A DNA stretch of 64,000 nt from Halovenus rubra. Its GTDB lineage: Archaea > Halobacteriota > Halobacteria > Halobacteriales > Haloarculaceae. Below, piece after piece: positions 40,073-52,746 of this stretch. The stretch spans positions 124,001 through 188,000 of the forward strand of contig NZ_JAODIY010000005.1 of NCBI RefSeq assembly GCF_026586665.1. The letters are read 5' to 3'. The notes under the pieces are model-generated. The model was not told where the DNA came from. It did no database searches and was given only the letters and a program-made list of their open reading frames with translations. The position numbers and the translations under genes were made by a program. The number at the start of each line of letters is the position of its first letter. Position 1 is the stretch's first letter.

Positions 40073-40175
40073 AGCCTTGTGGTGTAGTGGCCAATCATAG
40101 CGGCCTTTGGACGCATTCGGTTGTTCCGTCTGCGGAAGATAGCCGCTGACGCTGGTTCGAATCCAGCCAAGGCTA
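40073..40175 (+). tRNA. tRNA-Gln (anticodon TTG) with intron
   Basis: Acceptor strands AGCCTTG and CAAGGCT plus discriminator A; T-arm GCTGG/CCAGC around TTCGAAT. The anticodon stem GCGGC/GCCGC closes a loop CTTTGG+A with anticodon TTG, interrupted after position 37 by an intron of about 30 nt (40111-40140) at the canonical archaeal site. Haloarchaeal tRNA-Gln(TTG) introns of similar length are known; the splicing endonuclease removes them at a bulge-helix-bulge. A T6 run at 40179-40184 follows. Confidence 0.9.
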
Positions 40176-46979: not shown

Positions 46980-47762
46980 ATGAGTACAACTCATTCGCTG
47001 ACTGTTCTCAAACTCGGCGGCAGCCTTATCACGCACAAAGACCAGCGCGAAACGGTCGACTGGAACTCACTGGACCGCGCTTGCGCCACAATCGGGACTT
47101 TCCTCGGCGATCTGCCCGATGAACACCGGCTTATTATCGTCCACGGTGGCGGCAGCTTCGGCCACCACAACGCTGCAGAACACGGCGTCTCCAGCACTGA
47201 AGGAAGTACAGACGCTCGGGCATTGACGGCGATTCATCATGCGATGGGTGAACTAAACGGTGCAGTGCTTGGCGGACTCCATGACCACGGTATCGACGCG
47301 CTCCCAGTTCGCCCACTGTCAGTGGCTGCACAGGATGGACCCCTTCAGTTCCCAACGGCGTCCGTCGAGGCCATGCTAGATGAGGGATTCGTCCCGGTGA
47401 CACATGGTGATGTCGTCGTAGACGACCGAAAGGGGGGAACGATTCTGAGTGGCGACGACATTGTCGTCTCACTGGCACGCACGCTCGGCGCTGACCGGGT
47501 CGGTCTCTGTTCGACGGTCCCTGGCGTCCTCGACGACGACGACGCGGTTATTTCACAGGTCGATACGTACGACGACGTCGCGTCGGTGCTGGGGGGCAGT
47601 GACGCGACTGACGTGACTGGGGGGATGGCACATAAGGTCCGTCAGCTTCTGGCACTCGATGCAGCCGCCGCTATCTTTGCACTCGACGACCTCTCCCAAT
47701 TTCTGGAACACGGGACAGCAGGAACCGTTATTTCCGGACACGACGAGGAGAGGAGTCACTGA
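46980..47762 (+). CDS. ipk: Isopentenyl phosphate kinase
   Basis: A 260-residue amino-acid-kinase-fold enzyme that converts isopentenyl phosphate to isopentenyl diphosphate, the terminal step of the archaeal mevalonate pathway. Motifs are LKLGGSLITHK at the N-terminus, HGGGSFGHHNA with the catalytic histidine, TILSGDDIVVSLA and DVTGGMAHKV near the end. It lies between mvk and the isoprenoid gene idsA farther on. Confidence 0.94.
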   Translation: MSTTHSLTVLKLGGSLITHKDQRETVDWNSLDRACATIGTFLGDLPDEHRLIIVHGGGSFGHHNAAEHGVSSTEGSTDARALTAIHHAMGELNGAVLGGLHDHGIDALPVRPLSVAAQDGPLQFPTASVEAMLDEGFVPVTHGDVVVDDRKGGTILSGDDIVVSLARTLGADRVGLCSTVPGVLDDDDAVISQVDTYDDVASVLGGSDATDVTGGMAHKVRQLLALDAAAAIFALDDLSQFLEHGTAGTVISGHDEERSH

Positions 47763-47825
47763 CTCCGGGTTGTCGCCTCGCGGTTCGTCGGAATTTATTT
47801 AGTCGTCGTTGTTGATGCAATTGAT

Positions 47826-49136
47826 ATGAATACTGTTGATGTCGGAGAGAGTCTGACGTATGGGTTCAAATTATTTGTCTATCTCCTTGGAATCGCCGTA
47901 GTTGGTGGTGGTGGGATGGCACTTGGCGGCGCGCTCGCCGGTCCCGAAATTATCGATGGGACAGTGACAGATAATCTCAGCTCACCCGAGTTATTGGGTG
48001 GAGCCGTACTCGGCATACTCGGGCTGACTGTCTGGCTTTCGGGCTCGCTTGGACTGACCTACAAACTCCTCGCCGACGCAGTTCAACGGGGAACCCCTGC
48101 TGCAACAGACCTGACTGCTGACTCACAAGAAACTAATCAGAAGCCGACGGTTCAACGACCGCCCGAACCAGTAGGACCGTCGCCGGGCGAGCAGGCAGCC
48201 CGTCAGTTCGGCCGCGGTTCGACCGTTCCAAGCGCCGCCAACGTTCCGGACAGAGCACGACACCCAGTTGCTGAATCTGACTCGGGGACGGCCCAGACGA
48301 CCGAGAAGCAGCCTGTGGACACCACCACTCAGCCTCCTGAGCCGGCCGTAGAGACCGAGTCGCCAGACGAGACCGGTGTCACTGAGGATAACTCACCGAC
48401 AAAACCCGAGTCAACACCCAACGAACCACCGACCGATGGAGACGACTCGACGACAGAACAACAGCCGGCGACCGATGTCACTGAGTCGATGGCTGCTGAC
48501 AGCACGGACAGTGCTGTCGCTGAGGATAGTCCTTCTCAGACAACAAAACGGGAGTCCGACGACGCGTCGGCTAGTCCGGGTGACCCGAAACTCTTCGATG
48601 AGAGTGAGGAAGCCCCAGAAGAGAGACCGGACACGGCTGAGACTGAAGACACAACCGGCGAAACGGACGACGCCTCAACGGAACGGACGGCAGAGGAAAT
48701 TGCGTTCGGTACGGGTGAAAAACCAGCTTCCGAGGTGCCAGCGACACAGGAAGCAGGTCCCGACTCGGCTGACCAGTCTACGCCGGAACACGCCGACGAC
48801 AATGAACGTGACACGCCGACGGAAACTGGCTCTATTCCCCCCTACGAAGAGATGGATGAATCTGAGCTGGCAGAGTCTAGTGAACACGAGTCTATCCGGC
48901 AGGAGACTGACTCCACACAGGGAGCCAACAGTAAAACCGAGGACGAATCGGATGCTGAGAACGGTTCCGTAGATTCAGATACTCTGCTTTCGCCTTCTCA
49001 TAGCGAGGACGACCAAACCGAGACGCCCAAACCAGAGGTGGGAGACGATGCTGACGAAACCGACGAGCACGCCGAGGACACAAACAGTGATGATGCCGAC
49101 GATAACTCCGACACCGGAATGGACCCACTTTCCTGA
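47826..49136 (+). CDS. Membrane protein with a long acidic disordered tail
   Basis: A 436-residue protein. The first 90 residues contain two hydrophobic helices (LFVYLLGIAVVGGGGMALGG and AVLGILGLTVWLSGSLGLTY). From about residue 100 to the end the chain is almost wholly D/E/T/S/P with no hydrophobic core, a disordered acidic tail of some 330 residues that is probably cytoplasmic. The N-terminal helix pair is reminiscent of conserved haloarchaeal proteins near cheF, but no function is known. A TATA-like TTTATTTAG lies 27 nt upstream. Confidence 0.7.
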   Translation: MNTVDVGESLTYGFKLFVYLLGIAVVGGGGMALGGALAGPEIIDGTVTDNLSSPELLGGAVLGILGLTVWLSGSLGLTYKLLADAVQRGTPAATDLTADSQETNQKPTVQRPPEPVGPSPGEQAARQFGRGSTVPSAANVPDRARHPVAESDSGTAQTTEKQPVDTTTQPPEPAVETESPDETGVTEDNSPTKPESTPNEPPTDGDDSTTEQQPATDVTESMAADSTDSAVAEDSPSQTTKRESDDASASPGDPKLFDESEEAPEERPDTAETEDTTGETDDASTERTAEEIAFGTGEKPASEVPATQEAGPDSADQSTPEHADDNERDTPTETGSIPPYEEMDESELAESSEHESIRQETDSTQGANSKTEDESDAENGSVDSDTLLSPSHSEDDQTETPKPEVGDDADETDEHAEDTNSDDADDNSDTGMDPLS

Positions 49137-49220
49137 CCCCATCGAAACGGCGCGGTAAGCAACGAGTCACAAAGGTTGAAGATGGTCCTGGCCTTACGGT
49201 TCTGGTAGACAATATACTCA

Positions 49221-50093
49221 ATGTCATCAGTGCTTGCGGATTTTGTGGCCCACTTTACGTCCGAGACAGCCGACTGGGACGACCCAACAGAGGGACGTAT
49301 CTTGTTGAGTGAATCACAGCTTGTCTTGGCCAAAGACGAAGAACAAAAAGAAGTAATTGGGCTAGACCAGGTGTTCGATATCAATACGGAGACAACGCCG
49401 AAGTTTGTTGAGCCGATGCCGGGACGACCGGTAACTGTCGCCTATCAGAGCGGAAATAACCGTGTAACTGCCGTTGTTTCCGCAGATAAGACGACGAGCA
49501 AAAAATTCGAGACAGTGTTGTTCAAAGGGTTACTTAGCGGGACCTACATGGTGCTCAAACATCCAGCGAAAGTTGGTGGGCGTGTCATGGACACAGAGTT
49601 TCAGGGGGGTATCATGGGGCTGTCGACAAATGCTGTCACGTTCGAAATTGATGAGGGACCGGTGACGATTCCGTTAGACAGTGTCGTAGATTTCTCCCGT
49701 GAACAGCGGACTGTCAACGGTGAAAACCGGCCGGTGCTCGTAGTTAGTCACATGGATAACGGCGAAGCACTCGAAACCGTCGCAGCGAGCGACTCATCGC
49801 GGATTCTGTCGATTCTTGGTCGATATTTCAGGGGTACATACGAAGAGTTGCTCGCCTCGCTCCAGCAAATATCACTCTCAAATGCCGAGACGGAGGCGTT
49901 GACAACTATCTACTCAACTGGAGATATGGATGTCTCACTGCCAAGCGTTCTGGGGATGGACCCAAAGAAGGTAAAACGCGTGTTACACTCACTGCACGAT
50001 AATGGCCTCATCGAAGCGGGCGAGAATGGTCCGGTGTTGACTGCCAAAGGCCAGATTGTTGTCAACGAATATCTCGAACGAGTCAACGAGTAG
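49221..50093 (+). CDS. cheF: Taxis protein CheF (DUF439)
   Basis: A 290-residue protein of the archaeal CheF family, which connects the Che system (CheY, CheD, CheC2) to the archaellum motor. The N-terminal domain holds [20 protein letters not shown] and [18 protein letters not shown]; the C-terminal domain carries a winged-helix-like part ([20 protein letters not shown]). In haloarchaea cheF genes usually sit by che/arl clusters; here it is next to lipid and RNA genes and no other che gene is in the window. Confidence 0.85.
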
Positions 50094-50164
50094 CGCCGCG
50101 CTCCCGCCTGCTTTCGGGCACTGGGATTCCAACCAACGTTCTTTTAAGGCTTGCGGTAGCATAT

Positions 50165-50345
50165 ACGCGTATCCGAGCGAACGGTCGCCCCGGGAAACGA
50201 TACGGGCGACCGGCGTGCCGCCGGAAGACGACGTGCTTGGCCGTTTGGCCAGCACGCCAGACGGTGGCCGACCGACAGAGTCGGGACTCCACACGACCGG
50301 AGAGACGGTCGTGCTGGCAGTCGCCGGGCCACCCGGGAGACGACC
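50165..50345 (+). ncRNA. Candidate structured RNA between cheF and rnj
   Basis: A GC-rich block after a TATA-like CTTTTAAG at about 50140-50147. It can fold into a 9-bp stem (50182-50190 with 50204-50212), a hairpin of 6+4 bp (50232-50242 with 50247-50256), and a three-way junction closed by 50256-50260/50314-50318. The junction encloses an extended hairpin (50264-50272 with 50280-50292) and a perfect 7-bp hairpin (50293-50299 with 50306-50312). A last stem is 50320-50328/50332-50344. It could be an independent RNA or the leader of rnj. Not matched to any RNA family I can recall. Confidence 0.45.
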
Positions 50346-50361
50346 GCCTCGGCGTAACACA

Positions 50362-51708
50362 ATGGAAATCGAAATCGCAACAATCGGCGGTTACGAAGCG
50401 GTTGGACGCCAGATGACGGCAGTCCGAGCAGGTGACGATGTCGTCATTTTCGACATGGGTCTTAACCTCTCGAAGGTACTGATTCACGACAACGTTGAAA
50501 CCGAGCGAATGCACTCGCTTGACCTCATCGACATGGGTGCGATTCCGGATGACCGCGTCATGTCCGATCTCGAAGGCGACGTTAAAGCAATCGTCCCCAC
50601 CCACGGCCACCTCGACCACATCGGTGCAATCTCGAAGCTAGCTCACCGGTACGACGCGCCAATCGTCGCATCGCCGTTCACGATTGAACTGGTCAAACAA
50701 GGGATTCAAAGCGAGGAGAAGTTCGGCGTCGAGAACGACCTCGTCAAGATGGAAGCCGGCGAGACGATGCGTATCGGTGACCACAACGAACTTGAATTCG
50801 TCAACGTCACTCACTCTATCATCGATGCAATCAATCCGGTGCTTCACACACCCGAAGGGTCGATTGTTTATGGACTCGACAAACGTATCGACCACACGCC
50901 AGTCATCGGCGACCCTATCGACATGGAGCGGTTCCGTGAGATTGGCCGCGAGGATAACGGTGTCCTCTGTTATATCGAGGACTGTACGAACGCTGGAAAG
51001 AAAGGACGCACCCCGAGCGAGGCGACTGCTCGTCGCCACCTCAAAGATGTCATGTACAGCGTTGAGGATTACGACGGCGGTATCGTCGCGACGACGTTCT
51101 CCTCGCACATTGCCCGCGTGAAGTCCCTCGTCGAGTTCGCCGACGACATCGGACGCCAGCCCGTTTTGCTTGGGCGGTCGATGGAAAAATACTCCGGCAC
51201 CGCTGAACGACTCGACTTCGTTGATTTCCCCGAGGACCTCGGGATGTACGGCCACCGCAAATCCGTCGACCGGACGTTCAAGCGAATCATGAACGAGGGC
51301 AAAGAGGACTTCTTGCCCATCGTGACCGGTCATCAGGGAGAACCACGAGCGATGCTGACCCGGATGGGCCGGGGCGAAACGCCGTTCGAACTCGATGATG
51401 GCGACAAGGTCATATTCTCTGCCCGCGTGATTCCTGAACCGACCAACGAGGGACAGCGCTACCAGTCTGAGAAACTCCTCAGTATGCAGGGTGCACGCAT
51501 CTACGACGACATCCACGTTTCGGGCCACCTCAACCGCGAGGGCCACTACCAGATGCTTGACGCGCTCCAGCCCCAGCATATTGTCCCGGCACATCAAGAC
51601 CTCTCTGGTTTCTCCTCGTACGTCGACCTCGCGGAAGACGAGGGCTACAAAACAGGTCGTGACCTCCACATCTCACGCAACGGGCAGATGATTCAGCTGG
51701 TCGAGTAA
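50362..51708 (+). CDS. rnj: Ribonuclease J (archaeal)
   Basis: A 448-residue metallo-beta-lactamase/beta-CASP exoribonuclease acting 5' to 3' on RNA. The zinc-site motif is HGHLDHIGA near residue 79, further conserved parts are [35 protein letters not shown] and ISGHL-type [14 protein letters not shown], and HIVPAHQDL near the end. The open frame runs upstream to 50056, but RNase J proteins start close to [14 protein letters not shown], so the ATG at 50362 is chosen. It is coupled to idsA (4-nt spacing). Confidence 0.92.
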
Positions 51709-51711
51709 ACG

Positions 51712-52746
51712 ATGACACGACAGCAGGCAGTCGAAGGCACTATTGCACGGTGTCGACAGCAGGTCAACGATGCAATTCAGGAGGACCTCCCGGTTTCACA
51801 GCCCGAACGGCTCTACGAGGCGTCACGATATCTTCTCGATGCCGGCGGGAAGCGGCTGCGCCCGACAATTCTCCTCCTTTCGGCTGACTCGCTTGCTGAT
51901 GCAGTCCCCGACGCGAAACCGTACCGTCAGTTCCCGGCTGCTGACAGCAAGCAGGTCGATGTACTTTCGGCCGCGGTCAGTATTGAGATCATCCAGTCGT
52001 TTACTCTCATCCACGACGACATCATGGACGACGACGACATGCGTCGCGGTGTCCCGGCTGTCCACCGCGAGTACGATGTGTCAACAGCAATCCTTGCTGG
52101 TGACACGCTTTACTCGACGGCCTTCGAGAATATTCTTCGGACCGGTGCACCGCCAGACAGGTCAGTGCGGGCACTCTCAGAACTTGCGACAACCTGTACC
52201 GAAATCTGCGAGGGTCAATCGCTCGATATTGAGTTCGAGAGCAGGGGCCATGTCACGCCCGAGGAGTATTTGGAGATGGTCGAACTAAAGACGGCGGTAC
52301 TGTACGCCGCTGCAGCCTCCATCCCGGCAGTATTGTTGGGATACAACGATGCAGTCGACCCACTACACAGCTATGGGCTTGATATCGGCCGGGCCTTCCA
52401 GATTCAGGACGACCTGCTGGATTTGACGACGCCAACAGAGAAACTCGGCAAACAACGGGGAAGCGACCTTGTCGAGAACAAACAGACGCTCATTACTGTC
52501 CACGCGCGACAGCAAGGCGTTGACGTGGATTCGCTTGTCGAATCGGATTCCGTTGATGAGGTCTCAGAGGCAGAAATTGTAGAGGCTGTCGGCGTACTCG
52601 AAGACGCTGGCAGCATCGAGTATGCCCGCCAGACAGCTCGTGACTTCGTTCAAAGCGGAAAGGAACGGCTCGATGTTCTCCCCGATAACGAGGCTCGTGA
52701 GCGTCTTTTCGACATCGCTGACTATCTGGTCGAGCGAGACTACTGA
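51712..52746 (+). CDS. idsA: Geranylgeranyl diphosphate synthase
   Basis: A 344-residue trans-prenyltransferase that adds isopentenyl units to make C20 (or longer) chains for archaeal lipids. The first aspartate-rich motif is in HDDIMDDDDMRRG near residue 101 and the second in QIQDDLLDLT near residue 231, with GKRLRPT at the N-terminus. It follows rnj by 3 nt and completes the isoprenoid set with mvk and ipk. Confidence 0.94.
   Translation: MTRQQAVEGTIARCRQQVNDAIQEDLPVSQPERLYEASRYLLDAGGKRLRPTILLLSADSLADAVPDAKPYRQFPAADSKQVDVLSAAVSIEIIQSFTLIHDDIMDDDDMRRGVPAVHREYDVSTAILAGDTLYSTAFENILRTGAPPDRSVRALSELATTCTEICEGQSLDIEFESRGHVTPEEYLEMVELKTAVLYAAAASIPAVLLGYNDAVDPLHSYGLDIGRAFQIQDDLLDLTTPTEKLGKQRGSDLVENKQTLITVHARQQGVDVDSLVESDSVDEVSEAEIVEAVGVLEDAGSIEYARQTARDFVQSGKERLDVLPDNEARERLFDIADYLVERDY

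Follow-up and report, generated by a model that had tools for sequence, protein, structure and literature searches.

The cheF-rnj intergenic region

In the haloarchaeon Halovenus rubra, the gene for RNase J (rnj) lies downstream of cheF on the same strand, and the cheF stop codon (50093) and the rnj start codon (50362) bound a gap of 268 nt (all positions refer to the window, i.e., the whole 64,000-nt stretch of contig NZ_JAODIY010000005.1, 124,001 to 188,000, that was analyzed). This gap encodes what is almost certainly a structured cis-acting leader of the rnj mRNA (Table 1). A first-pass annotation had described the gap as packed with complementary segments, and a highly structured RNA is indeed predicted there: the region 50150-50350 folds with -105.7 kcal/mol (z = -5.0), and none of 200 shuffled versions was as good. 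The fold lies well beyond chance, as the lowest z-score among 160 random 201-nt windows from the same 64 kb was -3.96 (mean -0.34, sd 1.1).

The element does not belong to a known RNA family. A covariance-model scan of the kind proposed in the first-pass annotation found no Rfam 15 family at or above its gathering threshold in 50090-50370. The best sub-threshold match, RCNMV_TE_DR1 (25 bits, gathering threshold 80), is a plant-virus element and was judged to be due to chance. The covariance models of archaeal signal recognition particle (SRP) RNA (RF01857) and archaeal RNase P RNA (RF00373) gave no match at the leader either; these RNAs are encoded elsewhere in the genome (C5:213525-213835 and C48:439819-440191, respectively). 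The reading of the first-pass annotation that the element is apparently neither an SRP RNA nor an RNase P RNA nor a tRNA was confirmed. No description of an rnj leader was found in a literature search that did not extend to subscription journals and supplementary tables, and a long rnj untranslated region (UTR) may already be listed in some table of transcription start sites.

The upstream regions of rnj were compared in about 130 genomes of the window's family and in genomes of other families, which yielded 124 distinct leaders of the type present in the window (class A); almost every relative examined has such a leader. The TATA pattern was matched at 110 class A loci, and in 101 of these the distance from the start of the TATA box to the downstream CCGAG motif, which forms the first strand of the closing helix P1, is 31 or 32 nt. 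Because of this fixed distance, we place the 5' end of the transcript at that strand; transcription would start about 25 nt past the TATA box, near 50170-50172. The TATA-like box had been noticed before, whereas the start proposed with it (near 50165) should be moved downstream by a few bases.

The same comparison bears on whether there is a functional RNA at all. In the window, a frame beginning with TTG (50056-51708) is open through the leader, and GC-rich bacteria yield chance matches to the leader pattern, so that the gap could be chance-folding GC-rich palindromic DNA or an N-terminal extension of RNase J, the latter having been named beforehand as an outcome that would speak against the RNA. 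Both variants are very improbable and, in fact, already refuted by the data. The leader is not coding, since its lengths scatter over all three frames and in-frame stops are present in 57 of 124 leaders, and chance folding disagrees with the outlying fold energy and with the compensatory changes described below.

Table 1. Features of the rnj locus and of the predicted leader (window coordinates).
Feature	Position	Strand	Evidence and remarks
cheF, upstream neighbour	49221-50093	+	PF04283 CheF-arch, 4e-49
TATA box TTTTAA, rnj promoter	50142-50147	+	31 nt to CCGAG (50173) in the window
Predicted rnj 5' leader RNA, ~192 nt	50170-50361	+	Start predicted from TATA spacing; fold z -5; covariance model R1, 1.3e-26; covariation
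P1, 5' strand CCGAG	50173-50177	+	Pairs with 50348-50352; invariant in 14/14 Halovenus; minimum free energy statistics
Strand a	50182-50191	+	Pairs with a' 50204-50212 (local hairpin) or b' 50337-50346 (closed rod)
Strand a'	50204-50215	+	Pairs with a, or with b (50210-50215/50322-50327; alternative register 50205-50210/50320-50325)
Arm P3 with kink-turn	50217-50268	+	C-stem 50217-50223/50262-50268, bulge 50224-50226, distal stem 50230-50242/50247-50258
Hairpin P4	50272-50284	+	50272-50276/50280-50284; 100% paired, one-sided changes only
Hairpin P5	50292-50313	+	50292-50299/50306-50313; changes on both sides in 4/8 pairs
Strand b	50320-50328	+	Partner of a' in the closed rod
Strand b'	50337-50346	+	Partner of a in the closed rod
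P1, 3' strand CUCGG	50348-50352	+	Ends 9 nt before ATG in the window
rnj, RNase J, 448 aa	50362-51708	+	TIGR00649, 426 bits (cut-off 400); PF22505 RNase_J_b_CASP

Pairing within the leader

The predicted 5' end of the leader pairs over a long range with the segment just before the start codon. This conserved closing helix (P1) had been missed by the first-pass annotation. It is found in 89% of 123 free minimum free energy folds, compared to 36% when the interior is shuffled, and in the free minimum free energy fold of 108 of 118 leaders. Its 3' strand, CUCGG, ends ~10 nt before the ATG across class A leaders, and in many relatives the GG of this strand belongs to a Shine-Dalgarno-like GGAGGU; a 5-mer Shine-Dalgarno match within the last 16 nt is present in 43 of 124 leaders (background, 11%).

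Inside P1, four strands (a, a', b and b') can pair in two mutually exclusive ways. In the closed rod, which the first-pass annotation had likewise missed, P1, a:b' and a':b span the distance between the 5' end and the start codon, while in the local form a pairs with the adjacent a'. Both ways appear to be conserved. When the strength of pairing with the own partner was compared with that of partners swapped in from other groups (23 groups, genera or families), the own partner was stronger in 23/23 groups for a:a', in 18/23 for a':b (p = 0.005) and in 18/23 for a:b' (p = 0.001). Furthermore, the Halovenus pairs 50190/50338 (CG:7, AU:3) and 50191/50337 (CG:11, UA:2) change together, for which only the rod provides an explanation. 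The closed fold is the lower in energy in 115 of 118 leaders. Since the rod and the local hairpin exclude each other and each appears to be conserved, the leader is, judging from its complementarity, probably bistable, and we consider it somewhat more likely than not that the two conformations are both functional.

The rod encloses three arms. In Halovenus, the arm P3 has all the elements of a kink-turn, i.e., a C-stem, a 3-nt bulge, tandem sheared pairs (G50227.A50261 and A50228.G50260) and a non-canonical stem. The bulge and the GA/GA pairs are invariant in 14/14 Halovenus leaders, and a strict kink-turn pattern is matched by 11 of 15 Halovenus leaders and by both leaders of family f10, but by only 3% of shuffled sequences. 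The kink-turn was rejected as a general feature of the leader, being absent from most genera other than Halovenus, f10 and a single genome of family f3 (G183).

The fold proposed in the first-pass annotation was borne out in part. Its 9-bp stem (50182-50190/50204-50212) corresponds to the local pairing and is 97% paired by alignment cells over 14 Halovenus leaders; its hairpin at 50232-50256 makes up the distal portion of a longer arm, P3, in which compensatory changes occur; and its perfect 7-bp stem (50293-50312) varies with compensation. In relatives, pairing of the final stem (50320-50344), which is found in the window, reaches only 66-75%. Conservation is also lacking for the three-way junction, whose closing stem (50256-50260/50314-50318) is only 61% paired.

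Covariation analysis, which had been suggested as a check of the fold, revealed compensatory changes within Halovenus. In an alignment of 14 leaders made from sequence only, the 5' domain (P2, P3, P4) is 93.5% paired and contains 36 doubly changed cells, compared to 11.2 after shuffling (0/500 as good), far above every slid version of the structure; of the 10 doubly changed pairs, 9 lie in P3, in the C-stem and the proximal part of the distal stem. For the closed form, 17 doubly changed pairs were counted (9.0 after shuffling, 0/500 as good). True covariation support is confined to Halovenus; the family-wide case consists of model matches, the swap test and the fold statistics.

Several points weigh against the model of the leader proposed below. 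In the window, the closed and local folds (-104.8 and -104.1 kcal/mol) differ by 0.7 kcal/mol, which is within the error of the model, and all folding energies apply to 37 °C and 1 M NaCl rather than to haloarchaeal cytoplasm. Averaged over the family the gap is 7.4 kcal/mol, which could mean that one form dominates. The complementarity of strand a to both a' and b' could in part reflect duplicated sequence rather than a switch, and the window has no good Shine-Dalgarno match. When 123 leaders were tested in the manner of R-scape, with a null that preserves the phylogeny, no pair reached significance over all pairs; among the structural pairs, 50185-50209 (U-A/C-G) came closest (E = 0.18). The power of this test is low, as there is little variation in the conserved helices and alignment of the 3' segment between genera is poor; much of P1 and P2 is invariant within Halovenus and so yields no covariation.

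Leaders at RNase J genes

Within Halovenus, the leader DNA is 69-86% identical and always precedes rnj. A covariance model trained on the 14 Halovenus sequences only (R1) gave matches in 90 of 146 genomes of the family, the weaker ones including chance matches. All 47 matches with E ≤ 2e-5 are located within ~250 nt 5' of rnj on the rnj strand, with one copy per genome at strict scores, i.e., a conserved structured RNA in cis to an RNase gene. Outside the family, R1 detected two genomes of f10 and G183, in each case directly 5' of rnj. A pattern scan of 84,980 genomes revealed at least 36 places followed by an RNase J start; all named ones among the matches listed are haloarchaea. Pattern matches in actinobacteria and Halorientalis are not 5' of rnj and were regarded as chance in GC-rich DNA. 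A model match in genome G195, which appears to be inside an unrelated coding gene, was read as chance too. The same pattern scan of viral contigs gave five matches, none of them followed by an RNase J start.

These data also bear on the possibility that cleavage releases the leader from the mRNA as a stable, separate small RNA that builds up and has a role of its own in trans. Its very stable fold, closed ends and high conservation would be in line with this, and cleavage in the short spacer between P1 and the ATG would free a compact RNA. Nevertheless, such a role is improbable: at strict scores the RNA is always attached to rnj in a single cis copy, its interior arms change fast between genera, and neither a terminator of its own (no U-run or terminator is present between P1 and the ATG in the window) nor sites away from rnj were found. 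Of the two options raised by the first-pass annotation, a stable independent small RNA was thus not supported, whereas the leader of rnj stands; RNase J as the factor controlling it, which was part of that option, is something we infer. The leader reading fits because rnj invariably follows the RNA in cis, the 3' strand of the RNA adjoins the ATG without room for a terminator, and the leader of an RNase J paralog is built alike.

Two further classes of leaders were found. Class B occupies the same place, between the TATA box and the rnj ATG, at nearly all rnj genes examined in families f2, f3, f4, f6, f7 and f9. It has a different, strongly conserved core (GACGYGCUGYAAGACGCCGGGGCC), and there is no detectable sequence homology between the classes: despite a visual resemblance of one f10 leader, profile searches between class A and class B scored as shuffled sequence. 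In the f3 members of class B, the 5' end is paired as well, through the closing helix CGAAACCCGCGG/CCGCGG..GUUUCG. No Rfam match was obtained for class B leaders. An extremely conserved core of class B, AUAGCGGGAUGGCCGACGCGCUGCAAGACGCCGGGGCC, was noted in the last 200 nt before rnj (L143-L206; f2, f3, f4, f6, f7). In G183 (leader L333), a class A leader with a kink-turn is present at rnj where class B would be expected for f3; transfer or replacement of the rnj locus is possible in this case.

Class C precedes the second RNase J paralog (rnj2), where this is present, with the consensus UAACCGAAACACGYGYUGUCCC ... GGGAUCGCUCUGAUCGGACC-ATG. R1 gives no match to it, and 19 of 20 predicted folds are closed by pairing of the 5' CCGA with a UCGG directly in front of the ATG. 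The class C leaders L337-L359 were also seen to share UAACCGAAACACG..GUCCC...GGGAU..UGAUCGG-ATG. A similar closed architecture is seen at both paralogs, which suggests RNase J as the partner that is regulated and that may also regulate.

A predicted 5' end that is paired in all three classes could simply shield the mRNA of a 5'-3' exonuclease from its own product, without any regulated states. For such passive protection, however, a short 5' hairpin would suffice, and the length of ~190 nt, the conservation of the arms and that of the competing pairing call for more; we therefore regard this explanation as having only a small chance of being right.

Possible feedback by RNase J

Conservation, structure, position and the two competing foldings are directly supported. 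From them we infer the transcription start, the switching and the controlling factor of the following model, a cis-acting structured rnj leader with closed and local forms and negative feedback by RNase J, which we consider the best explanation as a whole, with a probability of roughly 0.5. Enzymes of the RNase J family act from the 5' end and also as endonucleases. In its main form, the leader would be an interrupted rod in which P1 joins the 5' end with the bases immediately preceding the start codon and is continued by a:b' and a':b, enclosing P3 (with the kink-turn in Halovenus), P4 and P5. This closed rod would hide the 5' end and abut the initiation region; in the local form, a would pair with the nearby a', the rod would unzip, and both the 5' end and the initiation region would be exposed. 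The state and survival of the leader could then report RNase J activity in two ways: abundant RNase J, or its complex, may bind, shift or cut the leader, or 5'-3' decay may begin once the 5' end is freed. Either route would lower mRNA stability and translation start when RNase J is plentiful. For the feedback through RNase J as such, the chances appear to be slightly less than even.

Instead of RNase J, another factor (L7Ae bound to the P3 kink-turn, an ion, temperature or a small molecule) might switch the cis leader and act mainly on translation start. Archaeal L7Ae is known to bind kink-turns in mRNA leaders (PMC5539422, PMC6298567), a kink-turn with invariant GA/GA pairs is present in Halovenus, and a kink-turn also occurs in f10 and G183, and P1 abuts the initiation region, overlapping Shine-Dalgarno-like bases in many relatives. 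We consider this rather unlikely, since most genera with the leader lack the kink-turn, the architecture is found with both RNase J paralogs, which points to the gene product, and two unrelated-looking classes on one gene are ill-suited to a single small-molecule aptamer.

The proposed feedback by RNase J has a precedent in bacterial RNase E, which feeds back on its own mRNA via the 5' UTR (rne5 in Rfam; PMC10989929), likewise a long structured leader of a central RNase gene. The rnj leader, however, matches rne5 neither in sequence nor in structure (Rfam scans), precedes the gene of an unrelated, archaeal enzyme (metallo-beta-lactamase/beta-CASP fold), pairs its 5' end with the initiation region and has two competing folds. 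With the archaeal L7Ae-binding leaders (PMC5539422, PMC6298567) it appears to share, from its sequence, the C-stem, 3-nt bulge, GA/GA pairs and distal stem of P3; there, though, the kink-turn is the regulatory element of the l7ae mRNA, whereas in rnj it is found in one of three arms, and most genera with the leader lack it. Two mutually exclusive pairings, one of them beside the start codon, are characteristic of translational riboswitches and bistable attenuators and are probable for the rnj leader as well, but the leader has no Rfam aptamer match or known ligand, and in class A the conserved core consists of helices instead of a ligand pocket. The leader would seem to belong among the structured autoregulatory leaders, among which a closed rod, probably bistable, on the mRNA of an archaeal RNase would be a new variant. 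It is a tentative extension, with odds somewhat against it, that both haloarchaeal RNase J paralogs are under order-wide leaders that tie the 5' end to the start codon and form a two-fold switch sensing RNase J activity.

Haloarchaeal mRNAs mostly lack a leader. A 5' UTR of more than 150 nt is a rarity in haloarchaea, with 97 cases in Haloferax volcanii (PMC4983044), and the archaeal RNase J (aRNase J) is essential in this organism, which has no exosome (PMC10470531). Because long leaders are so rare, a conserved ~190-nt leader on an essential RNase in organisms lacking the exosome is a strong sign of RNA-based control of archaeal RNA decay. To our knowledge, little is known about such control in archaea. 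If the model is true, this would be an autoregulatory leader of an archaeal RNase, with a bistable rod closing the 5' end of the mRNA of a 5'-3' exonuclease, a mechanism not described in bacteria. The leader also supplies testable elements (P1, a/a'/b/b', the kink-turn) and a new RNA family for annotation.

Some features around the locus were observed in addition. cheF and rnj are flanked by a gene of the amino-acid-kinase family and by a polyprenyl synthetase gene (46980-52746), and rnj may lie within an isoprenoid gene cluster; genera seem to differ in the gene that lies immediately 5' of the leader. Between the kinase gene (possibly encoding isopentenyl phosphate kinase) and cheF lies a gene (47826-49136, + strand) for a protein of 436 aa that has hydrophobic segments at its N-terminus and a long acidic tail rich in Ser, Thr, Glu and Asp, and for which no Pfam match was obtained. 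Further upstream (40073-40175, + strand), a tRNA of 103 nt was found by Rfam and missed by ARAGORN; it probably contains an intron.
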